A stretch of 64,000 bases of DNA from the NCBI RefSeq assembly GCF_010500215.1, contig NZ_JAAGOY010000007.1, forward strand, positions 124,001-188,000, read 5' to 3'. This DNA is from Aliiroseovarius sp. PrR006. GTDB lineage: Bacteria > Pseudomonadota > Alphaproteobacteria > Rhodobacterales > Rhodobacteraceae. Below, piece after piece: positions 32,011 to 43,191 of the stretch (position 1 is its first letter; each line of letters starts with the position of its first letter). Made by a program: the position numbers and the translations under genes. Under the pieces are notes generated by a model that searched no databases, had not been told where the DNA came from, and saw only the letters and a program-made list of their open reading frames with translations.

Positions 32011-32084
32011 GGCGAGTTGGCGGAGTGGTGACGCAGCGGATTGCAAATCCGTGTACACCGGTTCGATTCCGGTACTCGCCTCCA
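32011..32084 (+). tRNA. tRNA-Cys (anticodon GCA), island attachment gene
   Basis: A 74-base cloverleaf with acceptor stem ggcgagt/actcgcc, anticodon stem gcgga/tccgt around loop ttgcaaa (anticodon GCA), T-loop ttcgatt and an encoded CCA. Its 3' part is the crossover site of the adjacent integrase: bases 32040-32085 recur at 43146-43191. The gene is intact, because the incoming element restored the 3' end. Confidence 0.96.
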
Positions 32085-32085
32085 A
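32040..32085 (+). repeat. attL: 46-bp direct repeat (tRNA-Cys 3' end)
   Basis: The sequence from attgcaaatccgtg to cgcctccaa is identical to 43146-43191. The left copy is inside the functional tRNA-Cys and includes the anticodon loop, T-arm and acceptor 3' strand. Confidence 0.95.
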
Positions 32086-32246
32086 CATTTAGTAGAATTT
32101 CCAATAATTTGCAGATTTCGGCACAAGATCTTGTGTCGCGCATCTTGTGCACAATTCGTGCACAGTCCGCGTGCAGTTTCTGCTGCGACTTTGACTCGTT
32201 TGCCGTATAGTGTTCAGCAACAGGCATTTAACAAAAGCGGCATACG

Positions 32247-33662
32247 ATGAGCTACGGTGTAAGCACGGTAAATGTGCACAAGAAACTGAAGCTGGATAAG
32301 CGAAGCGGCAGTGACAATTGGTACGCGCGGCTGACGCTAGATAACGGCAAACGCATTGTTAAGAGTACAAAAACTGACGATTTGGAGGAAGCGAAAGAGC
32401 GCGCGATTGAGCTGTACTACGAAACAGAAGCTCGCATCAAAAACAACCTCCCTGCCCAAACCCGCAAGTTCAAGCATGTTGCTGAACACGCCATCAAACG
32501 CATGCAAGATGCATTGGAAAATGGGACGGGCAAACTGGCGTACAAAGACTACATTTCAGCACTGCGCATTTGGCTCATTCCGTACTTTGGCAGCACAGAC
32601 GTAGATAAGATTGACTTGGCTGCTTTGACGAAGTTCGACGCTTGGCGCACAGAGCAGAACAAGAAGCCATTTTCGCAAAGCGGCATCAACAATCATAACG
32701 CGGCACTGAACAGGGTTTTGGATGAGGCAGAACTGCAAGGCTGGCTCGTAAAATCTATGCGCCCCACTCTGCTAAACAAAGGCGTCAAAAGCGAAAGCAG
32801 AGGCAGCTTTACAGACGCTGAATACAAGAAAATCTACACCGCGCTGCGCACTTGGCATGAGAAGACGGACAACAAGAAGGCGGCGGCGACACGCGAAGTG
32901 CTGCGTAACTACGTTTTGTTCCTAGCGAATACAGGCATAAGACAAGGCAAGGAAGCGTTGGGGCTGCGCTGGCGCAACATTGAATGGCAAGAAAACGACG
33001 GCGAGAAATACCTGGTTGTAAATGTTGACGGAAAAACGCGAAAGAGAAGCGCAGTGGCGCGAGACACTGTGGAAGGCTACTTGGACAGGCAAAGCAAGCT
33101 GAATTCGTCTTTAAGCTACGACAGCTTCTCAGATCTCGTCGCTGCAAAAAGTGACGAGCACGTGTTTACGACGCGCTTAGGTCAAGTTACCAACATCGCC
33201 AGCCTGAACCGCGCATTTAATGCGCTGCTGGATGACTTGAGCTTGAAAGTTGGCGCTGATGGCAAATCCCGCACCCTGTACAGTCTACGACACTATTATG
33301 CGACGCGAGACTTGAAGCGCGGAATGAGTACTCATGCCCTAAGCAAGCAAATGGGCACTGGCACCACGATGATTGATAAGCACTACAGCAAGTTTAGCCC
33401 CATTTTGAATGCTGAGATGCACAGCGGACGCGACATGCGGAAGAACACAGCGAAGACGAAAAAATCTGACACTGGCGACGTTGTCGGCATGGCTTTTGAC
33501 ATGCTGGCAAATGGTAAGTTGGACGAGGCGGGCTTGTTGGCAGCTTTAGGCGTTGAACGGCCAAACTATGTTGTGACTGACGAGATTACGATAAAAGCAC
33601 TGGAAGCCCTGGGCAACGATTTGATCACGGATGACGCGTTGATGCGGATATTGAAGGGCTAG
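32247..33662 (+). CDS. int: Tyrosine site-specific integrase of the island
   Basis: A 471-residue tyrosine recombinase that would integrate and excise the island at tRNA-Cys. There is an N-terminal arm/core-binding region (residues about 10-180). The catalytic domain has Arg I in NTGIRQGKEALGLRW, box II YSLRHYYATRDLKRG and the nucleophile tyrosine in MIDKHYSKFSP. In box II the first histidine of the HxLR pattern is tyrosine, as I recall for many phage-type integrases. About 90 residues beyond the active tyrosine form an unusual C-terminal extension of unknown role. Confidence 0.93.
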   Translation: MSYGVSTVNVHKKLKLDKRSGSDNWYARLTLDNGKRIVKSTKTDDLEEAKERAIELYYETEARIKNNLPAQTRKFKHVAEHAIKRMQDALENGTGKLAYKDYISALRIWLIPYFGSTDVDKIDLAALTKFDAWRTEQNKKPFSQSGINNHNAALNRVLDEAELQGWLVKSMRPTLLNKGVKSESRGSFTDAEYKKIYTALRTWHEKTDNKKAAATREVLRNYVLFLANTGIRQGKEALGLRWRNIEWQENDGEKYLVVNVDGKTRKRSAVARDTVEGYLDRQSKLNSSLSYDSFSDLVAAKSDEHVFTTRLGQVTNIASLNRAFNALLDDLSLKVGADGKSRTLYSLRHYYATRDLKRGMSTHALSKQMGTGTTMIDKHYSKFSPILNAEMHSGRDMRKNTAKTKKSDTGDVVGMAFDMLANGKLDEAGLLAALGVERPNYVVTDEITIKALEALGNDLITDDALMRILKG

Positions 33663-33690
33663 CGCAAAAGTCGCCCTAGCCGCTTTCATT

Positions 33691-34110
33691 TCAAATTGAC
33701 TTGCGCTTTGCGGCCACGGCGATCGCGTCGTCCAGTTCGCCAGCTTCAACAGCGCCCTTCAACGACCCAAGCGCCCCCTGCACATCTTTCAGCGTTTTGA
33801 CAAACACCGCGTTGCCTTTGCCTAGCGCCAACACCTTGTTGCCGTACTTGCACTGTACGTACCAGCCGCCGTCCTGCTCAAAAAACCAAGGGCGCACTTT
33901 GCGCATACGATCAACAAGCACTTTCTCGCCATGCTCGTCTTTGCCCCAAGTCTTGCGCTTCACTTGGTGGTCCTCGCCTTTTAGCGCAGCCGCAGCCACA
34001 TTCAGCTGCTCATCAATGCCAGCAACAAGCTTCTGCCTGCGCTGCATTGTTGGGTCTTGCCTTGCAGTACGAACAACGGATTTGACCGCCAATTTTGCTA
34101 GATGTGTCAT
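33691..34110 (-). CDS. Hypothetical protein, DUF6641-like
   Basis: A 139-residue basic, mostly helical protein. The pattern of RRQKLVAGIDEQLNVA, VRPWFFEQDGGWYVQCKYGNKVLALGKG and the tail LKGAVEAGELDDAI resembles DUF6641 proteins of proteobacterial mobile elements, recalled from memory. It converges on the integrase with 28 bases between stops. The function is unknown. Confidence 0.65.
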   Translation of the reverse strand: MTHLAKLAVKSVVRTARQDPTMQRRQKLVAGIDEQLNVAAAALKGEDHQVKRKTWGKDEHGEKVLVDRMRKVRPWFFEQDGGWYVQCKYGNKVLALGKGNAVFVKTLKDVQGALGSLKGAVEAGELDDAIAVAAKRKSI

Positions 34111-34194
34111 GTTTTCACTCCTTTCGAAACCGTCGCTAGTCTGGCCCCTTCAACGACAAAAACGATCTAAATTAGTGTTATGACAAAAGAAAAA

Positions 34195-34218
34195 GGGGCC
34201 AAGATGGCCCCAGTTTTT
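34195..34218. terminator. Bidirectional intrinsic terminator
   Basis: A perfect 7-bp stem ggggcca (34195-34201) / tggcccc (34205-34211) with a 3-base loop, T7 on the plus side and A-rich sequence on the minus side that reads as a T-run in that direction. It lies 26 bases downstream of the minus-strand gene ending at 34237, which is its likely client. Confidence 0.85.
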
Positions 34219-34236
34219 TTGCTCTTACGATTAGGC

Positions 34237-35178
34237 TTAGGCATAGTCGTGATCGCGGTGCATTTCTGGCTCACGGCCAGTAATATCAGTGAATGTTTGC
34301 ACTTTGGCAGCTTCTTCAGCCAGCACCTCTTTCCTGTCGCGCACAGGCTCATCCAATACTTTGCCAACAATCGCCAGCATGTATTCAATCGTTTTCACGT
34401 CGCCGTCTTCAACAACCAATTCTGGCTCTCCTTCATCATTGTAACGAATTAGAGCAACAGAAAGTCCTTTATATTGGTCGTTGCGCAAGTTGGGTTCACA
34501 GGCGAACTTGTTTCGCAGCTCTTGATGTTCCTCAGTCCCAAGCCAGCTGTCGACAAACGTTAGCCCGTTTTCAACATTCGCTTGATGGCGTTCGCTTGGC
34601 TTAACACCGCTTTCGTTCGTGTTTGCCACCTCGTAAATCCCACCTTCCCGCGCAAGCCATGCTGCAAATGAGATTTTTCCACTAGTAACGTCATCGCACT
34701 TGAGCGCGATTTTCAGAACACGAACCCATGCCTTTTCACGCGACTTTGTGATGTTTCCACATACAAACCGCAGCACTTTAGCTTCAAACGATGTAGCTGC
34801 GGTGAAGTCGATTTTTTCTTCCTTTTTCAGCTGCTTGATCGTTACCTCAAAAGTGTTCCGCATACGGCTAAGCTCGACTTTTTTACGATCGTGGCGGTGA
34901 ATGTTCATCCGTGCGACGACGCCAAAGACGCCTTGGAGAAACTCGTACAGCGCGATGTTCGCTTTTTCTTGCAGCTGGACATACTCGCCATATACGCCGC
35001 GCAATTCGCTCAGCAGATCAACAGCAGCATCAACCTCATTGTCGATGTTTTGCGCGGGACGGAGGAAAAATTTCATAACGTCTTTTTCGTTGCTGCGCTC
35101 AGCTTTGGGGCTTTCACTAGTGTTCAAGATGAGGTTTTGAGCATTGGTTTCGATTTGGGTTTCAAATGTGTTTTGCAT
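34237..35178 (-). CDS. Hypothetical island protein
   Basis: A 313-residue soluble, charged protein that I do not recognise. The middle (about residues 60-130) is helical with a possible coiled coil, and the C-terminal third is acidic. No catalytic motif is evident. ATG 35178 is chosen because aggaaatagac sits just upstream; ATG 35199 would add seven residues. It is divergent from the 276-residue gene across about 150 bases of AT-rich DNA, which probably holds the promoters of both. Confidence 0.65.
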   Translation of the reverse strand: MQNTFETQIETNAQNLILNTSESPKAERSNEKDVMKFFLRPAQNIDNEVDAAVDLLSELRGVYGEYVQLQEKANIALYEFLQGVFGVVARMNIHRHDRKKVELSRMRNTFEVTIKQLKKEEKIDFTAATSFEAKVLRFVCGNITKSREKAWVRVLKIALKCDDVTSGKISFAAWLAREGGIYEVANTNESGVKPSERHQANVENGLTFVDSWLGTEEHQELRNKFACEPNLRNDQYKGLSVALIRYNDEGEPELVVEDGDVKTIEYMLAIVGKVLDEPVRDRKEVLAEEAAKVQTFTDITGREPEMHRDHDYA

Positions 35179-35332
35179 GTCTATTTCCTTTTCTGTCATG
35201 CGTTTCAGTGTTTTGTTGAAGCTCTGTTCGTCATCAACACAATCAATGTATCGCGAATTTTTGACTTTCTTCGTTCAGTGAAATAGGCTCTATGTAAATG
35301 TGCATTTTTTCTCTTAACTATCTGTTTTTACT

Positions 35333-36163
35333 ATGGATGATAGAAGACATAGAGCGGGCCCAAAGCTCTTTATTCATGCCCCACCATTCAAGGGCATACG
35401 CTCACGTGAAACTGGCGAGTACATCTCCAAACGGCTGGCGCGAATCCAACCGCCATTCCATGATGCAAAGCCATGGCAATGCTCCGTGTTTTACTTCTGG
35501 TGGGAGTTTTTGAGGCGACACGAAGGGTACAAGGATTGCTGTGAACGGAGCGGCAAGGGGCGCTACAAAAAGCTGTACGCTGACTTTGGTGATGTGCACG
35601 CATACAAGACAAAGGACTTCTGGAAATGGTGGAGTGAGAAAGTCGAAGAAGACTTAACGCGCGGGCAGCACTTGTTTGCAGAACCCGCTGCACGGCGGAT
35701 TCGGGCGGGAAACAGGTCGTTGAACGACCAAACTGACGGGACCATCACATTGTCGATTCCCCTTGAAGTGAGGACCAAGCAACTAGTTCGCAACTTCCGC
35801 GATATTCTAAACGACCACAAAGCAGACGTAGCGGCGGCACGGAAGGTAAGCAGGGCTTTGTATCCCGTTGCGGCCAAAGTGCGGCTTGTATCGCTATACC
35901 AAACACTATGTGTGTGGGACGTTTGGCAAGAACACAAGAAGCGCAAGAAGAAGTACGAGCTGGCTGAACTCGCTGGCCTACACGTCAATAGGGTTGTGAA
36001 CGGTTGGACTGTAGAAATGGCAAAACGAGAAGATCTGCCATACAACGACATTCAACGAGAGGTCAGGCGCAGACAAACGGCCAGTTTCAACCGCCACCTG
36101 GCTGCCGCTGAAGACTACATTGAAAATGTGGCGCGAGGTCAGTTTCCCAAGCGTAGCAAATGA
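35333..36163 (+). CDS. Hypothetical island protein
   Basis: A 276-residue basic protein, unrecognised. The N-terminal half is rich in aromatic residues (SVFYFWWEFLRRHEGYKDCCE, later DFWKWWSEKVEEDL), and the C-terminal half has a possible helix-turn-helix (ELAELAGLHVNRVVNGWTVE). This could be a DNA-binding element protein such as a replication or excision factor, but that is a guess from charge and context. There is no clear ribosome binding site at ATG 35333. Confidence 0.6.
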   Translation: MDDRRHRAGPKLFIHAPPFKGIRSRETGEYISKRLARIQPPFHDAKPWQCSVFYFWWEFLRRHEGYKDCCERSGKGRYKKLYADFGDVHAYKTKDFWKWWSEKVEEDLTRGQHLFAEPAARRIRAGNRSLNDQTDGTITLSIPLEVRTKQLVRNFRDILNDHKADVAAARKVSRALYPVAAKVRLVSLYQTLCVWDVWQEHKKRKKKYELAELAGLHVNRVVNGWTVEMAKREDLPYNDIQREVRRRQTASFNRHLAAAEDYIENVARGQFPKRSK

Positions 36164-36217
36164 GCCCATTTCAAAACTCCTTAGCCTGCTAAAGCTAAAT
36201 ACAGGCAGGAGAACGAA

Positions 36218-36517
36218 ATGAACGTATTGGAACTACAAAACTGCCTGAACAGGCTTGAAGCAAACCACCGCACCCAAAGCACCCAGGAACGATTGAAGAT
36301 CGCACAGTTGCTCATGCAATCCGCAAGCAGCTATGTTCAGCGGCTACGGACAGAACTGCGGGAAGATGGTGCAGCCGCAAGTAGGCGAAAAGCAAAGCGG
36401 CGTGAAACAGAGCTAGACCCAAAGCCACCTGTTAAACCAGTGCGCGTTGCTGAACCAAGCAAACCAAGAAAGCCGAAATATTCGGGAAATCACGCGCCAT
36501 CTGCACCAAAGCGATAA
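36218..36517 (+). CDS. Small basic hypothetical protein
   Basis: A 99-residue protein with a helical first half (NVLELQNCLNRLEANHRTQS...) and a lysine/proline-rich, probably disordered tail (PKPPVKPVRVAEPSKPRKPK). A good ribosome binding site (caggagaacgaa) precedes the ATG. It follows the 276-residue gene by 54 bases. The charged tail suggests nucleic-acid contact, which is inference. The hairpin-dense region begins about ten bases after its stop. Confidence 0.6.
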   Translation: MNVLELQNCLNRLEANHRTQSTQERLKIAQLLMQSASSYVQRLRTELREDGAAASRRKAKRRETELDPKPPVKPVRVAEPSKPRKPKYSGNHAPSAPKR

Positions 36518-36527
36518 ATAACTTTAA

Positions 36528-37119
36528 CAGGTTAAGGCGAAAGCCACCTGCTCTATAAACTGACCACACGGTTAGCACGCCAGTTATCATTGTGCCGCAA
36601 ATCCGTTCTGATGTGAGACGGTAAGCAAACGGATTAGTCAGTTGTCCGCTTCAACAGTCTACCCTGCCAATGTGCGCAGGATGCCTAAAAGCACACCGCC
36701 ATTGCGGAACCGTGCTTACTGTTGTCGTAGTGGTTGTAGCGCAGAGATGTGCGAATTTAGTGAGACGGAACGACACGCTGCCTAGCAGTACCCGTCATCG
36801 CGCTGGACAAGCTTTGCTACACCAGCCCCAGCGCGTGCGTAAGATGACCAGTAAAGAGATGATCGCAAAACCTGCTCTACCCATGTGGTTTGGTGAGTGT
36901 AGCCCAAAAGCGACGGATAAAGCCGCGCGACAGGATCACGCCAAGAACAGGCGTGATCCTATTGCTCTAGATAAAGACCTTCATTCATTCCCAAAATCAT
37001 CATGCCAATAATCTGAATTTGGCCAACAAAACGCTGTGCGGCGAGAGCGTAGCGATTGAGCCGCAACAGCTGCTGATGCGAAGCAGCGGCACAGAAGAAC
37101 TGACGATTGATGCCAGTTC
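36528..37119 (+). ncRNA. Candidate large structured non-coding RNA, unknown class
   Basis: Roughly 590 bases hold no convincing ORF but at least eight perfect or near-perfect hairpins in a row. Examples: CAGGT-taa-GGC-GAAA-GCC-ACCTG (36528-36550, GNRA loop); AATCCGTT/AACGGATT (36600-36607/36628-36635); CCTGC/GCAGG (36663-36680); a nested AAGCAC(CCGC-catt-GCGG)GTGCTT (36689-36717); CGCGCTGG/CCAGCGCG (36799-36806/36828-36835); an 11-bp AGGATCACGCC/GGCGTGATCCT (36932-36960); GCTGTGCGGC/GCCGCAACAGC (37033-37070, one bulged A); GAACTG/CAGTTC (37097-37119). GTGAGACGG occurs twice. Strand and ends are guesses; the 11-bp hairpin may be a 3' boundary. Confidence 0.5.
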
Positions 37120-37143
37120 GAATTGACAACAAGGAGATACTCA

Positions 37144-37482
37144 ATGTCATTGATGGAAAAAATCTACGATTACTTACACCAAAACGCATTTGTGGAGACG
37201 GCAGAAGAATTCAGCACAGATTGGTGTTGGAGAAGCAAAAGCTGGTTTGCCGTCCAAAAGAACAAGAACGGGGAATTTTCGATCCCTGTTGCAATCAACT
37301 GCCTCAACAAGACCAAGATCAATATCGCGTTGGCACATCTGAAACGGAAAAAGCTAGGCAGCATTGCTGACAGCGACATTCAAATTTTGAGTGAAGTCAG
37401 GGATCAGCTTGAACAGCATTTGCTGGAGCAACACAGGATTGCTGCTGTGGTCTGCAACGACGGACAAATATCAAAATGTTAG
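37144..37482 (+). CDS. Hypothetical protein, DUF6626-like
   Basis: A 112-residue protein starting MSLMEKIYDYLHQNAFVETA with the aromatic stretch DWCWRSKSWFAVQKNKNG, similar in plan to small DUF6626 proteins of mobile elements (recalled, not searched). The start is ATG 37144, with a strong aaggagatactca site directly after the structured region. It precedes the short recombinase gene by 136 bases. Confidence 0.6.
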   Translation: MSLMEKIYDYLHQNAFVETAEEFSTDWCWRSKSWFAVQKNKNGEFSIPVAINCLNKTKINIALAHLKRKKLGSIADSDIQILSEVRDQLEQHLLEQHRIAAVVCNDGQISKC

Positions 37483-37503
37483 ACTTTCAGTAATGTCTAA
37501 CAT
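37476..37503 (+). terminator. Hairpin over the stop codon, possible terminator
   Basis: A perfect 9-bp inverted repeat ATGTTAGAC (37476-37484) / GTCTAACAT (37495-37503) spans the stop of the DUF6626-like gene. There is no T-run after it, so it could be an operator or RNA processing site instead. Confidence 0.4.
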
Positions 37504-37618
37504 CTTCCCCAAAAAGCCATTGGCAACAAAGGCTTAGCCTCAATGCCTTTTTCGGTCGTTTTGAAAAATGTGTGGTTTTACAATGACTTGTGACAGAAAC
37601 ACACATTTTGGGTGAGAC

Positions 37619-38191
37619 ATGAAACAAGCAAAGTTACTGACAACTACAGAACAGAAACGCGTCTACGCAGTCATTGACGCACACCGCTACAAAACAAGAA
37701 ATCGCGCAATCTTTGCTTTCAGTTTTTTTGCTGGGCTACGTGCTTGTGAGATCGCGGCACTAAAGGTTGGCGACGTTTTTGACGAGCAGGGTAACGTACG
37801 AGACACTGTGTATTTGGCAGTAACGCAGACAAAGGGTGGTGAAGCAGGTACTGTGCTGGTAAGCAAGCGTTTGAACAAGGCGCTTGCTTCATTTGCCGCC
37901 ACCTACCCGCGCCATGTCAGCAAACCAAATGCTCCGTTGTTCTTCAGCGCAAAGCGCGGCGGCTTTAGTGCGCAAACAATCGTGAATTTGTTCGCCAAGT
38001 TCTATGCTCTGGCAGGCATCAAGGGCGCAAGCAGTCACAGCGGCCGCAGACAGTTTTTGACGGAGTTGGCAGACAAAGGTGTGAACGTGCGCGTGATACA
38101 GGCGTTGGCTCGACACAAGGACATAAGCACGACCCAGAGATACATTGATTACAATGAGAGCAAGCTACGCAACGCGATTGAGCTTCTTTGA
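37619..38191 (+). CDS. Short tyrosine recombinase (catalytic domain only)
   Basis: A 190-residue protein consisting of just the catalytic domain. All key residues are visible: Arg in AGLRACEIAAL, HSGRR (HxxR), then ARHKDISTTQRYIDYNE with the late histidine and nucleophile tyrosine. The usual N-terminal core-binding domain is absent, as in several stand-alone mobile-element recombinases and FimB/E-like proteins. It could invert or excise a segment inside the island; no obvious inverted recombination sites were found. The 3' end converges on the methyltransferase gene, 16 bases apart. Confidence 0.88.
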   Translation: MKQAKLLTTTEQKRVYAVIDAHRYKTRNRAIFAFSFFAGLRACEIAALKVGDVFDEQGNVRDTVYLAVTQTKGGEAGTVLVSKRLNKALASFAATYPRHVSKPNAPLFFSAKRGGFSAQTIVNLFAKFYALAGIKGASSHSGRRQFLTELADKGVNVRVIQALARHKDISTTQRYIDYNESKLRNAIELL

Positions 38192-38207
38192 ATGCAGCGG
38201 CGATTGT

Positions 38208-39200
38208 TTATTCTGCAGCCAACGCTAAGCGCATTTGGGCTTCTTCACTCTTTTCAACCCGCTCTCCCCGTATCGCCGCTGCGATTGCTTGCCCAACGCT
38301 ACGAGCGACGGGCGGCGGGAATGCATTACCTATCTGCCTGTACTTTGAGGTCTTACCACCGCTGAATTCCCAGTGGTCAGGAAAACCCTGAATTCTGGCC
38401 GCCATTCTCAGCGTCAGTCTAGGCAGGTGATCAATAGCATGACTTGAGTTTGGCGGTTCATTGGCTATGCCCTTACCATCAACTCCCAGTTCAGCCCACT
38501 GACGTTTTGCCCTAGTTGGACCTAGGTCCGCACCACCGTGCTTTTTTGACCCCCCAACAATTGTTGGAGCCACTGCGGCAGCCTTCTTGCGCCACTCCTC
38601 AACTCCACCCCAGCCTTCAGCCGCCATCAGATCACCAATCGCTGCAGCAACAGTCATTTGACTTTCCAATGGTTTAGGAAAGTTGAATTCCCTTGAAATT
38701 TCGCGTTTCAATGCAACCAGTACAAACCGCGGCCTCAATTGTGGAACCCCATAATCGCTAGAGCGCAATAGCTCCCAGTGCGCTTCGTACCCCATATCTC
38801 CAAGTTCTTGAATAATGGCGCGGCGATAGTCAACGAATCTGGATGATGACAGCCCTCTTACGTTCTCTAACATTACAGCCTTAGGCTTGCATTCGCGTGC
38901 AAGCCTAAGGGCAGCGGGAAACAAGTCCCGCTCGTCGTCAGCACCAAGCTGCTTTCCCGCCACGGAAAAGGGAGGACACGGAACACCGCCAGCGAGCAAG
39001 TCGACACCATCGTACTCGTGGGCACTAAATTCCTTCAGGTCCGCCTCAACGACTGTCCAGCCAGGTCTGTTGAGGCGAAGAGTATTGCAGGCGTCAGCGT
39101 CTATTTCGACCGCCGCCGCCGTAGCGAATCCCGCTTGCTCCAAGCCAAGTGCTTGTCCGCCAGCGCCCGCGCAAATCTCTAAAACACTGATGCTGCTCAT
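38208..39200 (-). CDS. DNA (cytosine-5-)-methyltransferase
   Basis: A C5-cytosine methyltransferase of about 330 residues. Motif I LEICAGAGGQALGLEQAGF, motif IV GGVPCPPFSVAG with the catalytic cysteine, motif VI ENVRGL, motif VIII PQLRPRF, motif IX LTLRMAARIQGFPDHWEF and motif X QIGNAFPPPVA are all present, so it is probably active. The target recognition domain lies between VIII and IX (about residues 175-255). It is divergent from an HNH nuclease gene and is its likely modification partner. The start is ambiguous between 39200 and 39218. Confidence 0.93.
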   Translation of the reverse strand: MSSISVLEICAGAGGQALGLEQAGFATAAAVEIDADACNTLRLNRPGWTVVEADLKEFSAHEYDGVDLLAGGVPCPPFSVAGKQLGADDERDLFPAALRLARECKPKAVMLENVRGLSSSRFVDYRRAIIQELGDMGYEAHWELLRSSDYGVPQLRPRFVLVALKREISREFNFPKPLESQMTVAAAIGDLMAAEGWGGVEEWRKKAAAVAPTIVGGSKKHGGADLGPTRAKRQWAELGVDGKGIANEPPNSSHAIDHLPRLTLRMAARIQGFPDHWEFSGGKTSKYRQIGNAFPPPVARSVGQAIAAAIRGERVEKSEEAQMRLALAAE

Positions 39201-39344
39201 GTATGATTGAACCCTCATTTCACCCCACATATTGTAGCGCCTTCGACAGCTGGCGCAAGAAGAAGGTCAAACTTGCCCTCAACCTCTGGTAAAGCGCGAC
39301 CCATACGGATACCCTAACTGCGCAACAACACCTGGAGAGCAGTT

Positions 39345-39986
39345 TTGAGCTACAACCAGTATCTTCTATCACTAAACACCAAGAGTTTGAGCAAAGTTAA
39401 ACAGCTTATCCTAAAAACGTTATGGGAAGCGGGCGACAGCTATCCCAAAGGGTGGGTATCAAGCTCCCGTCTGCTTGAACTGACAAATCAAAAATATTTC
39501 GATCGTCGAACTCGCGAGCTAAGAGACGAGCTGGGGTGCGATATAGAGACACGCCACATAAACGGCGAACACCACTACCGCTTGAAGTCTGAAACACTTA
39601 ATCAGGCAAACCCTCGCGCGTATCTGACTGACACTGAGAAGAAGAAGCTATTTGCTGCTGCGGACTATTGTTGTGCGATATGCGGCAAGCGAGCAAAAGC
39701 TGGTGTGCGAGGACTTCAGGCAGACCACAAGATACCGCTAATACGTGGCGGTTCGCACCAGCTTGATAACTGGCAGGCAATTTGCAACGACTGCAACGTC
39801 TCAAAGCGGCGTTCATGCCAAGGCTGCGAAGAAAACTGCAAGAGTTGCACTTGGGCGTTTCCTGAAGTCCTTGGAGTTGCGGTCTCGCTTCGCCTTCCAG
39901 TGGAAACTGTTGAAGAGATTAGAAAACATACTGCAGACACACCAAAGTGGATTGCGGAGTTGGTTCAAAGAGAGCTTCATAAATGA
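39345..39986 (+). CDS. HNH endonuclease, probable restriction enzyme
   Basis: A 213-residue protein with an N-terminal winged-helix-like domain (residues about 15-85, SLSKVKQLILKTLWEAG... ) and an HNH domain: CAICGK, then LQADHKIPLIRGGSHQLDNWQ and CNDC. A further CxxC/CxxC cluster (CQGCEENCKSC) follows. The catalytic DH pair is intact. It starts at TTG 39345, with tggagagcag upstream. Divergent from the cytosine methyltransferase, it is the likely cutting half of a type II restriction-modification system. Confidence 0.87.
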   Translation: MSYNQYLLSLNTKSLSKVKQLILKTLWEAGDSYPKGWVSSSRLLELTNQKYFDRRTRELRDELGCDIETRHINGEHHYRLKSETLNQANPRAYLTDTEKKKLFAAADYCCAICGKRAKAGVRGLQADHKIPLIRGGSHQLDNWQAICNDCNVSKRRSCQGCEENCKSCTWAFPEVLGVAVSLRLPVETVEEIRKHTADTPKWIAELVQRELHK

Positions 39987-40100
39987 GGGTCGCGCTTATT
40001 AGAGCGTTTGCACTGCGCGCAAACATGCTTGTCAAGAAATGCCCTTAGTTGCGAATGTCGCGTAACCATAAGACTGAACACACCAAAGGAACTGAAGAGA

Positions 40101-41201
40101 ATGAGCCTCGAAGCAGAAGTGAAGGCTGCACGAAATGAGATTTCGCCTGACGGATATGAGATGTCAGTTGGCGAAATCATGAACTTGTACAGAGACGGTG
40201 AGTTAGTAATTGATCCAGCTTTCCAAAGGTTGTTCCGCTGGGATGAGACGAGGAAAACAAGATTCATTGAATCTTTGCTGTTAGGAATTCCAGTTCCACC
40301 AATTTTTGTTTTCCAAGACGAGAGCGGTGTATGGGAGCTAATTGATGGGCTTCAAAGGTTATCGACGATCTTTCAATTTACTGGGATTTTGAAAGGTAGC
40401 GATGGGGAAGAAATTGACGAGATGACTTTAGAAGGAACCACCTTCTTGCCAAGTCTTTCAGGAAAAAAGTGGAGCGCAGACAATGCACAAGAAGAAATTG
40501 GACAGGCGCTTCAAATTCAAATCAAACGAGCACGCCTACGTGTGGAAATCTTGAAACAAGAAAGCGATCCACTGGCAAAGTTTGAACTCTTTCAAAGGCT
40601 AAACACTGGCGGCGCTTCTCTATCAGAACAGGAGATTAGAAACTGCATTGCTGTCATGCTAAATCGCGATCTTCACGATTGGCTTCAAGCCAGAGCTCAA
40701 TTTGCACCTTTTGTAGACTGCACTCAGCAGACGGAACGGGCGGTTACCGCACAAATGAATGTTGAGCTAGTATTGCGCTATCTTGCCTATGTTCACCAAC
40801 CTTATGAAGGTGGCCTTGATGTCCATGATTACCTAGATAGCGTTCTAGCTAACTTGGCAAACAACAATCAATTCAATTTTGAGCAGGAGACTGCCAATTT
40901 TGAGCGAACGTTTCAAGCGCTTCACAATGCTTTAGGTGCAAACGCATTTAAACGCTGGGACGGCGCCCATTTTCGCGGAAAATTCCTAATGTCTGTTTTT
41001 GAGGTGCTTACAAGCGGCGTAGCGAACAACCTAGACGCAATCTATGCACTGGATGACGCCGCTCGCTCGCAATTCATTGAAGAAAAAGCAAAGTCGCTTT
41101 GGGAAAACGATGTTTTTCAAGCAAACTCTGGTGGAGGCGTACGCGGCACAACACGCTTGCAAAACTTGCTACCAATGTCTCGCGAATTTTTAGCCCCCTG
41201 A
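40101..41201 (+). CDS. DUF262-domain protein (GmrS-like, without DUF1524)
   Basis: A 366-residue protein whose N-terminal half is a DUF262 (ParB/sulfiredoxin-like) domain: DPAFQRLFRWDETRKTRFIESLLLGIPVPPIFV, then the signature LIDGLQRLSTI (usually DGQQRLTTI). DUF262 occurs in GmrS of the type IV GmrSD systems and in other anti-phage proteins, where it binds or hydrolyses nucleotides. The GmrD-type nuclease domain (DUF1524) is absent; instead the next gene, 20 bases on, is a HEPN protein. ATG 40101 is chosen (gaagaga upstream); the frame runs further up without a site. Confidence 0.87.
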   Translation: MSLEAEVKAARNEISPDGYEMSVGEIMNLYRDGELVIDPAFQRLFRWDETRKTRFIESLLLGIPVPPIFVFQDESGVWELIDGLQRLSTIFQFTGILKGSDGEEIDEMTLEGTTFLPSLSGKKWSADNAQEEIGQALQIQIKRARLRVEILKQESDPLAKFELFQRLNTGGASLSEQEIRNCIAVMLNRDLHDWLQARAQFAPFVDCTQQTERAVTAQMNVELVLRYLAYVHQPYEGGLDVHDYLDSVLANLANNNQFNFEQETANFERTFQALHNALGANAFKRWDGAHFRGKFLMSVFEVLTSGVANNLDAIYALDDAARSQFIEEKAKSLWENDVFQANSGGGVRGTTRLQNLLPMSREFLAP

Positions 41202-41221
41202 CGAAACGGAAAGCGATTTCA

Positions 41222-41878
41222 GTGGCCAAGATTCGCACCTTATCTGATCTCCAAGACCGCCTTGACAAAGAACTAGCATGGCGACTGAAAGAGGTTGCAG
41301 TTCTGAAGACGGCTGTGCAAAAAGCATCTGGGCAGGCTCAGGTCGCTCAGGTGCGAGCGGGTGTTACAATACTGTATGCTCACTGGGAAGGTTTTGTTAA
41401 GCAAGCTTCCACACAGTACCTTGAATACATATGCCGCAGTGGAACGAAATACTCTGAACTACAAGACGCGTTTGTGTTCCTTGGTTTACGAAAGCAGATT
41501 TCAAGAATTGCGGTGTCGTCAAAAACCAAAGCTGGCATTGAAGCCATTGAGTTCATGCGCAAAGGTTTGGGTGAAACAGCATCATTTGATTACCAGAGCG
41601 CGATTGATACGGCTTCCAATCTAAGCTCAACTGTATTTGAGGATATTGCGACATCTGTCGCGATTGATCCCAAACCATACACCCCCTACTCCAAACTGAT
41701 TGATGAGAGTCTCTTGAACAGGCGCAACAAGATCGCGCACGGAGAATTCTTGGATCTGGATGCCAAAAGCTGGAAAGAGTTGTCTGATGAAGTTCTGATT
41801 CTACTGCGAATGTTCAAAACAGACATTGAAAATTGCGCGACGATGCGAAGCTTTAAGCTGAAGGCGGTCAGTACATAA
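41222..41878 (+). CDS. HEPN-domain protein, MAE_28990/MAE_18760-like putative nuclease
   Basis: A 218-residue protein with the characteristic start KIRTLSDLQDRLDKELAWRLKEV and VTILYAHWEGFVKQASTQYLEY of the MAE_28990/MAE_18760 HEPN family, and the HEPN catalytic pattern Rx4H in RRNKIAHGE (about residue 165). HEPN proteins are mostly RNases that act in toxin-antitoxin and abortive-infection systems. It starts at GTG 41222 with ggaaag nine bases upstream, 20 bases after the DUF262 gene, so the two are an operon. Confidence 0.87.
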   Translation: MAKIRTLSDLQDRLDKELAWRLKEVAVLKTAVQKASGQAQVAQVRAGVTILYAHWEGFVKQASTQYLEYICRSGTKYSELQDAFVFLGLRKQISRIAVSSKTKAGIEAIEFMRKGLGETASFDYQSAIDTASNLSSTVFEDIATSVAIDPKPYTPYSKLIDESLLNRRNKIAHGEFLDLDAKSWKELSDEVLILLRMFKTDIENCATMRSFKLKAVST

Positions 41879-41978
41879 TGCAAAGAACGATTGGGGCGTA
41901 AGCAAATGGGGGCATGACGTGGTGGAGATTGACGACTGCAGATCAATGGTAGTCTTTCGGAACGCGAGCACCTCGAGT

Positions 41979-42965
41979 TTACCCCGCTCGAAGCTCAGCC
42001 TTACAGGGAAAAATTTTTATGCCTGAACGCCTACTGAACTGATCCAATACCCCACTAATGGAATAGATTCCCTTGTGTGGCTTCTCCATGAAATTGTCGC
42101 CGTCCTCAGGCGACAAAACGCAAGTCACGCGACCCACTGACCCTAAGCTATCATCATTAACTATCGTTAGATTTCCACCATTGATCCAACTCTCATCTTG
42201 CACGAAAAATACGTAGACTTCCTCAATGAAAATTGTCTGGCCGCGTTTGCTAGCCAAGTCCTTCAGTTGTAGCGCGGAATATAAGTACAAGTCCGTGTCA
42301 GCATCTAATACTACCGCGTAGTCTGCCAATCTTTGACGTTTAGCCTCTGCATCCGCTAGCTGTTGTTTTTCAACCTCACGCCTCTGCTGCACAGCGCGCG
42401 CCTGACGCTTAGCGTCTTCCTCAGCCAAACGTTTTCGTTCTGTTTCTTCAGCTGCCAGCCGTTGCTGTCTTCTTTCCTCCTCTTCCGCTGCCCGTTGCTC
42501 ACGTTCAAGCTGAGCAGCACGAAGACTTTCTTGGTATTTCTGCCACTCCTCAGAGTCCTTGTCTATTTTTTGGCTTTCAGAATTAGAATGTGCGATGGAT
42601 TCAAACTTGTCTGCATAACTTTGAATGCAAACCCTTGCCCTATTGCTCCTCCAACACTTGTCTCCGTCTTGGCGCAGGACTCCAAGTGACTTTGACAACT
42701 TAAAACCTAAGCCGCCGTTCCATTTCGATTCCCCACTTCCATCAACATATAGCTCAGAGATGTTACGCCCCGCCTCATCAAAATTTATTTTCGATGGGCT
42801 GACGTCGTAGAAGCCAATATAGCAATCACCATCAAGGAAAACTTCACCGTCTACTTCCAAGTAGCAGTACCTGTACTGCGACTGATATTCTTGTGACTCC
42901 GCTACTAGCGGATTCAAAAGCGCCCAAATACAGAGTGCGGTATATCCCCAGCATCTTGCCAACAT
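41979..42965 (-). CDS. Secreted protein with charged coiled coil
   Basis: A 328-residue protein with an N-terminal signal or anchor (MLARCWGYTALCIWALLNPLVA), a globular part with several cysteines, a long E/R/A/Q coiled coil (about residues 140-215, TolA-like), and a C-terminal globular part (about 220-328) with two cysteines. The family is not recognised. It is the last gene before attR, facing the HEPN gene. ATG 42965 is chosen for the signal peptide and upstream ggag; a TTG at 42998 is possible. Confidence 0.7.
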   Translation of the reverse strand: MLARCWGYTALCIWALLNPLVAESQEYQSQYRYCYLEVDGEVFLDGDCYIGFYDVSPSKINFDEAGRNISELYVDGSGESKWNGGLGFKLSKSLGVLRQDGDKCWRSNRARVCIQSYADKFESIAHSNSESQKIDKDSEEWQKYQESLRAAQLEREQRAAEEEERRQQRLAAEETERKRLAEEDAKRQARAVQQRREVEKQQLADAEAKRQRLADYAVVLDADTDLYLYSALQLKDLASKRGQTIFIEEVYVFFVQDESWINGGNLTIVNDDSLGSVGRVTCVLSPEDGDNFMEKPHKGIYSISGVLDQFSRRSGIKIFPCKAELRAG

Positions 42966-43145
42966 CTCCAATACTCCAGCTAAACTTTTGAAATTCAAAT
43001 CAGATGTACCGCAAACGGCTATGGCATGACTATTACATTCTCATTCAAGACGTCGACACTCAACCGTCTGTACGCAAATCGGTACACACATATTCTATAA
43101 TATTACAACCAACTGTTTTCTAATCACCTTTTGTATTGTGAGCCA

Positions 43146-43191
43146 ATTGCAAATCCGTGTACACCGGTTCGATTCCGGTACTCGCCTCCAA
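43146..43191 (+). repeat. attR: second copy of the tRNA-Cys 46-bp repeat
   Basis: Identical to 32040-32085. It has only the 3' part of the tRNA, lacking the acceptor 5' strand and D-arm, so it is not a functional tRNA gene. It marks the right end of the island. Confidence 0.95.

Follow-up and report, generated by a model that had tools for sequence, protein, structure and literature searches.

A predicted pseudoknotted RNA of about 460 nucleotides on an integrative island of Aliiroseovarius, with relatives in phage contigs

The DNA analysed here, a stretch of 64,000 nucleotides from the 3.2-Mb genome of Aliiroseovarius sp. PrR006 (hereafter the window), carries at positions 36525-36985 of its + strand what comparison with related sequences predicts to be a structured RNA of ~460 nt. 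The predicted fold is a compact body of about a dozen helices and two pseudoknots, and we judge it likely that the RNA is a stand-alone, trans-acting molecule of mobile elements, the window holding the island form of a larger class. An initial annotation had suggested that an integrative island here encodes a large structured RNA, and this is borne out by covariation, two pseudoknots, att repeats in tRNA-Cys and relatives in phage contigs. The span it had given, 36528-37119, holds for ~36525-36985 but not for the remainder, as the unit ends near 36985: the last ~130 bases are without conservation across the family, and we rejected 36986-37119 as part of the RNA core on the basis of its folding z of -1.2 (9 of 60 shuffles as low) and its lack of alignment across the family. 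Both ends are approximate, having been placed by a GATAAATA box and by the loss of conservation.

The stems that had been named lie where they were placed: the GNRA-capped hairpin (GGCGAAAGCC inside CAGGT/ACCTG, 36528-36550), the nested stem AAGCAC/GTGCTT (36689/36712), the 8-bp stem CGCGCTGG/CCAGCGCG (36799/36828) and the 11-bp perfect hairpin at 36932-36960. The reported recurrence of GTGAGACGG at 36613 and 36760 is also correct; the two copies belong to different helices, P4 and P10, and the second is kept as GTGANNNGG in the alignment described below. By eye, the 5' hairpin is kept in close relatives (for example L037; loci are cited by L numbers and genomes by G numbers), and AGGC repeats are found instead in others.

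It is covariation among the aligned sequences, and not folding energy, that decides the case for a structured RNA. Alignment A6 contains 23 full-length sequences and 80 base pairs in 15 named helices, two of them pseudoknots; 80.0% of its 1748 cells are paired, and 54 of the 80 named pairs have changes on both sides, so that the compensatory changes sought in homologues are present. Double-changed cells number 274, compared with 108.6 (sd 8.2) in shuffled alignments, none of 500 of which scored as high, and with 60-93 when partners were slid, counts to be read with the structure being partly derived from the same sequences and the shuffles ignoring kinship. Most of the double-change support comes from P11, PK2, P16, P5, P3, P7 and P13, and P15 is poorly supported, with 29.3% of its cells paired; we think that the pairing of PK1 (58.2%), P6 and PK2 is lowered by alignment register. 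Omitted from A6 were L016 and L027 (truncated), L014 (5' part lost, internal deletion), L047 (in which the RNA would pass the contig end), L049 (an insert), L058 (too divergent) and, as duplicates, L032, L033, L035, L036, L039, L045, L051 and L059. Alignment A9 restores L016, L027, L049 and L058 and adds L078, L149, L150 and L151. Block A taken alone, in an alignment of 31 sequences that was fitted to the structure being counted but without PK1, is 94.5% paired, with 17 of 23 pairs double-changed.

Pseudoknot PK1 was put to a permutation test, run on the alignment fitted without PK1 and with the left register free within the 5' strand. All six tested pairs form in 26 of 28 distinct sequences, compared with at most 16 in 2000 permutations, and 228 of 756 swapped combinations form all six. 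This test was used for PK1 instead of a free helix search, which we rejected as a held-out test for being too permissive; when that loose search was applied, sequence by sequence, to five members outside A6, neither PK1 nor P11 was significant and PK2 stood out in three of the five. The helices and the other features of the island are collected in Table 1.

Table 1. Positions of the predicted RNA elements and of the island features in the window
Feature	Positions	Strand	Basis
attL, within and just behind tRNA-Cys	32040..32085	+	46-bp perfect repeat
Tyrosine integrase of island	32247..33662	+	PF00589, phrog_1
DUF6641-like protein	33691..34110	-	PF20346 E 0.0022, below its cut-off; phrog_31551 1.4e-24
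GATAAATA box, presumed promoter element	36513..36520	+	single copy, both strands, 64-kb window
5' hairpin CAGGT/ACCTG with inner GNRA hairpin GGCGAAAGCC	36528..36550	+	sequence
Pseudoknot PK1	36558-36564 with 36637-36643 (P5 loop)	+	26/28 sequences, permutation test
Helix P3 (GCAC/GTGC)	36575..36595	+	100% of cells paired, 4/4 pairs double-changed, 31 sequences
Helix P4 (CCGT/ACGG), holds first GTGAGACGG	36603..36621	+	covariation
Helix P5	36630..36648	+	5/5 pairs double-changed, 98% paired, 31 sequences
Long-range helix P6 (CAACAG/CTGTTG), encloses P7 and P8	36652..36724	+	3/6 pairs double-changed, 69.7% paired
Helix P7 (CCTGC/GCAGG)	36663..36680	+	98.2% paired, 3/5 pairs double-changed
Helix P10, starts in second GTGAGACGG	36764..36796	+	90.4% paired, 3/5 pairs double-changed
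Helix P11 (CGCGCTGG/CCAGCGCG)	36799..36835	+	8/8 pairs double-changed, 89.8% paired
Pseudoknot PK2	36816-36822 (P11 loop) with 36897-36903	+	7/7 pairs double-changed, 69.6% paired
Helix P13, conserved loop GATNGCAAAACCT	36855..36878	+	3/4 pairs double-changed, 89.5% paired
3' hairpin P16	36933..36959	+	7/10 pairs double-changed, 88.2% paired
DUF6626 protein, common RNA neighbour	37144..37482	+	PF20331 over cut-off
Small tyrosine recombinase, 190 aa, common RNA neighbour	37619..38191	+	PF00589, phrog_216
attR	43146..43191	+	46-bp perfect repeat

Among the 54 well-aligned pairs, G-U cells outnumber A-C cells by 108 to 41 (140 to 51 over all 80 pairs), and this excess favours an RNA made from the + strand. 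Folding energy was compared with shuffled sequence as had been proposed, and z is low, yet it discriminates poorly here. With 20 shuffles per strand, z comes to -3.27 (+) and -2.90 (-); for 36525-36985 it is -2.1, a value to which none of 30 shuffles fell. Elsewhere in the window, one of 11 further segments of 461 nt reaches -3.8 (8 shuffles). Because another segment of the same window is equally low, we rejected folding energy as proof of an RNA. As a separate observation, in a subgroup that includes L018, L027 and L044 a hairpin TGATGT..ACGTCA stands in place of P4 (CCGT..ACGG), as if a module had been swapped.

Relatives are few among sequenced genomes of the family. A DNA search of 394 family genomes returned nine with a match, G232 and G388 by only 30-37 bases. 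Covariance model R1, which covers 36554-36690 and was made from six loci, that of the window among them, scores 140.6 bits there and has carriers among 8 of 394 family, 2 of 21 genus, 2 of 357 class and 4 of 369 phylum genomes, counts that each include the window's own genome and come from overlapping draws. Model R2 represents the 3' domain and was made from alignment A7, which keeps 17 of A6's 23 rows. Searching with a pattern from the RNA's 3' half picked out 18 stretches in GTDB contigs and three viral contigs; R1, which covers the 5' half only, is found in 17 of the former and in all three of the latter, and in the eighteenth stretch, L047, the 5' half would fall beyond the contig end. 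With a second pattern, from the RNA's middle portion, nine viral contigs came up: the three already known and six new ones, each of the six containing block A (40.2-104.5 bits). Two of the five stretches found with a shorter pattern, L052 and L053, have no block A and were taken as chance. The RNA is present on related islands in other Alphaproteobacteria and in one more distant lineage (L149, L150).

By blastn, the window RNA has no match in the phage and plasmid collections, L017 has none in the phages and L048 none in the plasmids; L031 gave only short matches, which were taken as unrelated. We found no publication describing this RNA in the open-licence literature (main texts). Broken copies also occur: at ~7700 of L016 the RNA is cut off against a restriction-helicase-like ORF (labelled by eye), the copy at ~120-210 of L014 lacks the 5' part and the middle, with the deletion at a GTGCG..GATG repeat, and that of L027 is cut behind block A.

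The RNA had been put forward as a new class, and it indeed has no Rfam match at the curated cut-off, but in its 5' domain it appears remotely related to Polynucleobacter-1 (RF01718), a 141-nt model with a curated cut-off of 37 bits. Only two tRNAs exceed the curated cut-offs in the window, and neither lies in the RNA; ARAGORN and Rfam place no tmRNA or tRNA there, the window's tRNA-Leu and tRNA-Cys both being elsewhere. Weak Rfam matches to DUF2815, mir-1827, mir-32, LPR10, psbT-asRNA, TtnuCD4, mir-239 and Chloroflexus-1 were taken as chance. The likeness to RF01718 is seen by eye in the order of helices P3, P4, P5 and P6, the last enclosing P7 and P8, and in the motif CACUAuCC..GGA, and true RF01718 RNAs have a potential PK1 of their own, CTACTG/CAGTAG. 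Unlike this RNA, the RF01718 model is without a 3' domain or pseudoknots, and the family members tested score below its cut-off or are unmatched.

RF01718 has no match in the window RNA and exceeds its cut-off in none of 23 records searched, nor in three further ones. With cmscan it matches, below the cut-off, over its whole length in two phage lineages: in L031 at 21.2 bits (E 0.02 in 601 bases, 0.008 in 241 bases) and in L080, which is from L055, at 19.8 bits (E 0.37, 20 short loci scanned together); the L031 match was not recovered in two further scans, of its record and of locus L081, presumably through stricter filters. The two models coincide in one genome, G914, in which RF01718 is the sole match up to E 10 (25.8 bits, E 9.2e-4) and its position, 649533-649688, overlaps that of R1, 649569-649704 (52.9 bits, 5.1e-11), on the same strand; R2 follows behind (58.8 bits), and a DUF6641 relative lies beside the RNA. 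In G1042, of the same genus, relatives of the integrase, the small recombinase and DUF6641 surround the RNA. Of four viral contigs returned by a pattern made from the RF01718 consensus, three (L084, L085 and L086) have true RF01718 RNAs (92.1-94.4 bits); the fourth, L087, has none. The best matches of R2 outside the family, weak as they are (E 0.22-0.66), are found in these three contigs (L084 12.5, L086 12.5 and L085 10.6 bits, L084 and L086 being nearly identical), in each case immediately 3' of the RF01718 match and in the same orientation, and R2 had been built without any of the three. At the RF01718 RNAs of L084 and L085, R1 has no match.

The RF01718 scores of 19.8-25.8 bits hardly exceed that of a 23.3-bit match at a non-RNA place in G378, and at E up to 10 the model has matches in 6 of 14 control genomes; the link is drawn because the positions coincide, not because of the scores. 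RF01718 is thus probably the 5' part, about the 5' third, of a larger RNA class, of which the window RNA would be the island form. In the open-licence literature we found Polynucleobacter-1 in the 2010 paper alone, which lists it for Burkholderiales, fresh water and estuary (PMC2864571).

The island occupies 32040-43191 (11.15 kb) between its two repeats, the first of which lies in tRNA-Cys. Ten of its proteins were put to Pfam, and ORFs 41099-41878 and 41979-42998 stayed outside all family searches. Beyond the genes of Table 1 it has at 38208-41878 a cargo that resembles restriction-modification: a C5-cytosine methylase, an HNH protein, a GmrSD_N (DUF262) protein and a further ORF. We note that methylase-like or type III restriction-like ORFs, labelled by eye, are seen at other RNA loci. 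Among 23 RNA loci, some of which end early at contig ends, tblastn found relatives of DUF6626 in 20, of the small recombinase in 19, of the integrase in 14 and of a clamp loader in 10, with gene order and orientation varying from locus to locus. RNA islands L013, L017 and L018 carry a small clamp-loader-like AAA protein, which one would hardly expect on an integrative element of small size.

Of the 394 genomes, 28 encode the small recombinase, and 21 of these have no R1 match. Of 30 recombinase loci fetched, 23 were searched, the other seven being six known RNA places and L142; R2 has no match in these 23 and R1 two weak ones, both in L139 (15.0 and 12 bits, E up to 1). Since most recombinase genomes are without an R1 match, we rejected an obligate link between the RNA and the small recombinase; the recombinase loci are mostly without the RNA, which is therefore an optional part of these islands.

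In phage contigs, all of which are fragments, the RNA sits among or near late-type genes. In L031 it immediately precedes a same-strand gene for the terminase small subunit; in L057 such a gene follows after ~1.1 kb, with a 148-aa ORF between. In L054 and L055 it is found between small ORFs and a gene of phrog_447 ('NAD synthetase') with a weaker homing-endonuclease match, whose protein we take from its motifs to be GIY-YIG-like; a 53% identical relative of this protein adjoins the RF01718 RNA of L084, a contig that also has SbcC/SbcD-like and late sigma genes, as in T4-like phages. A 310-aa ORF and then a methyltransferase (phrog_8156) stand behind the RNA in L056, and in L058 long ORFs and terminase genes are on the strand opposite to it. 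A set of named phages chosen by a related terminase or phrog_447 gene (Melnitz, HTVC111P, DSL-LC06, V45v66, ACP17, phiN3 and P-HM1) was searched in parts or as wholes; the best scores, 15.9 bits for R1 and 16.7 bits for R2, fall at different places and were taken as chance. At ~590-1030 of L094, phage DSL-LC06 has an unannotated stretch whose leader carries AGGC repeats as in the family and which neither R1 nor R2 matches; it is perhaps a very divergent member, or nothing.

The phi29 pRNA takes part in packaging or particle assembly, and the present RNA could be a late-phase phage RNA with such a task, carried by islands that behave like phage satellites, a reading to which we give an outside chance. 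The terminase genes of L031 and L057 would fit it, as would the long tail-fibre-like ORFs (labelled by eye) near the RNA in phage contigs, the late sigma gene of L084, the resemblance of the GATAAATA-type box to the T4 late promoter, TATAAATA, and the clamp loader, three proteins of which (L013, L017 and L018) match phrog_168. However, no terminase adjoins the RNA in L054, L055, L056 or L058, no capsid or terminase family appears among the ten island proteins put to Pfam, and tblastn found no clamp loader relative on the window island.

A cis-regulatory leader, that is, a riboswitch or attenuator acting on the gene behind it, would agree with the first classification of Polynucleobacter-1, which in Table 1 of its description has 'y' under 'cis-reg?' and '?' under 'Switch?' (PMC2864571). 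DUF6626 does lie behind the RNA on the same strand and within 1.4 kb in 9 of 23 loci, at which a cis role is conceivable, and in phage L031 the terminase small subunit gene comes next. Yet DUF6626 is divergent in four loci, upstream on the same strand in two, more than 4 kb away in five and not found in three, and the next same-strand ORF in phage contigs differs between L031, L057, L054/L055 and L056, with the long ORFs of L058 on the other strand. No one conserved same-strand gene is found directly downstream, and we regard such a leader as improbable.

Very unlikely in our estimate is a DNA element, with single-stranded hairpins used by tyrosine recombinases or in replication and no RNA at all. 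The island has two tyrosine recombinases, the smaller of which recurs at most RNA loci, and GCGAAGC-type mini-hairpins lie just behind the core (by eye), but the G-U excess on the + strand, the fixed unpaired motifs, the occurrence in phage contigs and the varying orientation relative to the recombinase all speak against it. A degraded or overlooked protein gene with chance stems can be dismissed, in keeping with the original statement that no real ORF is present: the single 113-aa frame at 36670-37011 (a 105-residue stop-free run) is the longest in the window RNA, and in any of three frames of the 22 other aligned sequences the longest stop-free runs are 36-90 residues, those of 90 (L043) and 82 (L037) being in close relatives and the other 20 sequences having only 36-75, with no conserved protein and with compensatory changes in the stems.

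The reading that we favour is a stand-alone RNA that acts in trans. Because the neighbouring gene changes between loci, it would act as an RNA body and not on the gene beside it; it is presumably expressed, and would work while the element is lytic or excised. To our knowledge few bacterial RNAs of such size and knottedness are known, and this one may be among the handful of big RNAs of bacteria that have no known job. GOLLD and ROOL are large ornate RNAs of phages and prophages that form cages, with no described role (PMC12286853), and one GOLLD RNA is reported to be dispensable for phage production (PMC7567579). The present RNA is likewise large, ornate and found in phages, but it is ~460 nt long, lies on tyrosine-recombinase islands and has no tRNA in the seven related loci scanned, the tRNA-Cys att site of the window, 4.4 kb away, being the only tRNA near; GOLLD and ROOL have no match in it at Rfam cut-offs, nor among the weaker E-value matches. 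According to the latter paper, phage ICP1 and its PLE satellites each have a predicted non-coding RNA as their most abundant transcript (PMC7567579). The likeness, drawn from description, is that both a phage and its parasitic islands encode non-coding RNA; among the differences, inverted repeats flank the PLE transcript, and host and element are not the same.

By analogy with GOLLD/ROOL and with the ICP1/PLE transcripts, we tentatively propose a late phage RNA: phages would make it late in infection, and integrative islands would retain a copy with which to exploit that phage step or compete with it. A broader version strikes us as doubtful, namely a widespread ornate RNA of ~460 nt, known so far by its 141-nt fragment, that unrelated phages, T4-like ones among them, would produce in the late phase, that satellite or anti-phage islands would carry, and that would form a multimeric body serving or sabotaging a shared late step such as packaging or host shut-off. 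The RNA represents another class of large RNA, with a fold backed by covariation, that occurs on integrative islands of cultured bacteria as well as in phage contigs, and the evidence suggests that RF01718 is a fragment of a full-length RNA of phages and islands. At ~460 nt it is short enough for probing and cryo-EM, and its full-length presence in phages and islands makes the function of a big phage RNA directly testable by deletion.

Position 36513 holds the GATAAATA box from which the RNA is probably read. Of 28 loci, 25 have an NNTAAAT box 28-86 nt ahead of the model match, which for L084 and L085 is that of RF01718; L027 and L049 have no such box, and the single one of L031 stands at a distance of 134 nt. 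Consensus scans found no sigma-70 promoter on either strand and no intrinsic terminator on the + strand, and P16 is not a standard terminator, since no U-run trails it. Just 3' of the core (36986-37119; on islands and in some phages), GCGAAGC and GCGNNAGC mini-hairpin motifs are abundant by eye. We also note that two to four AGGC(A) repeats, in many cases roughly 8-15 nt apart, are seen by eye between the GATAAATA-type box and the core, with such leaders in L015, L016, L034, L038, L041, L044, L054, L056 and L058; these repeats are possible protein-binding or pairing sites.
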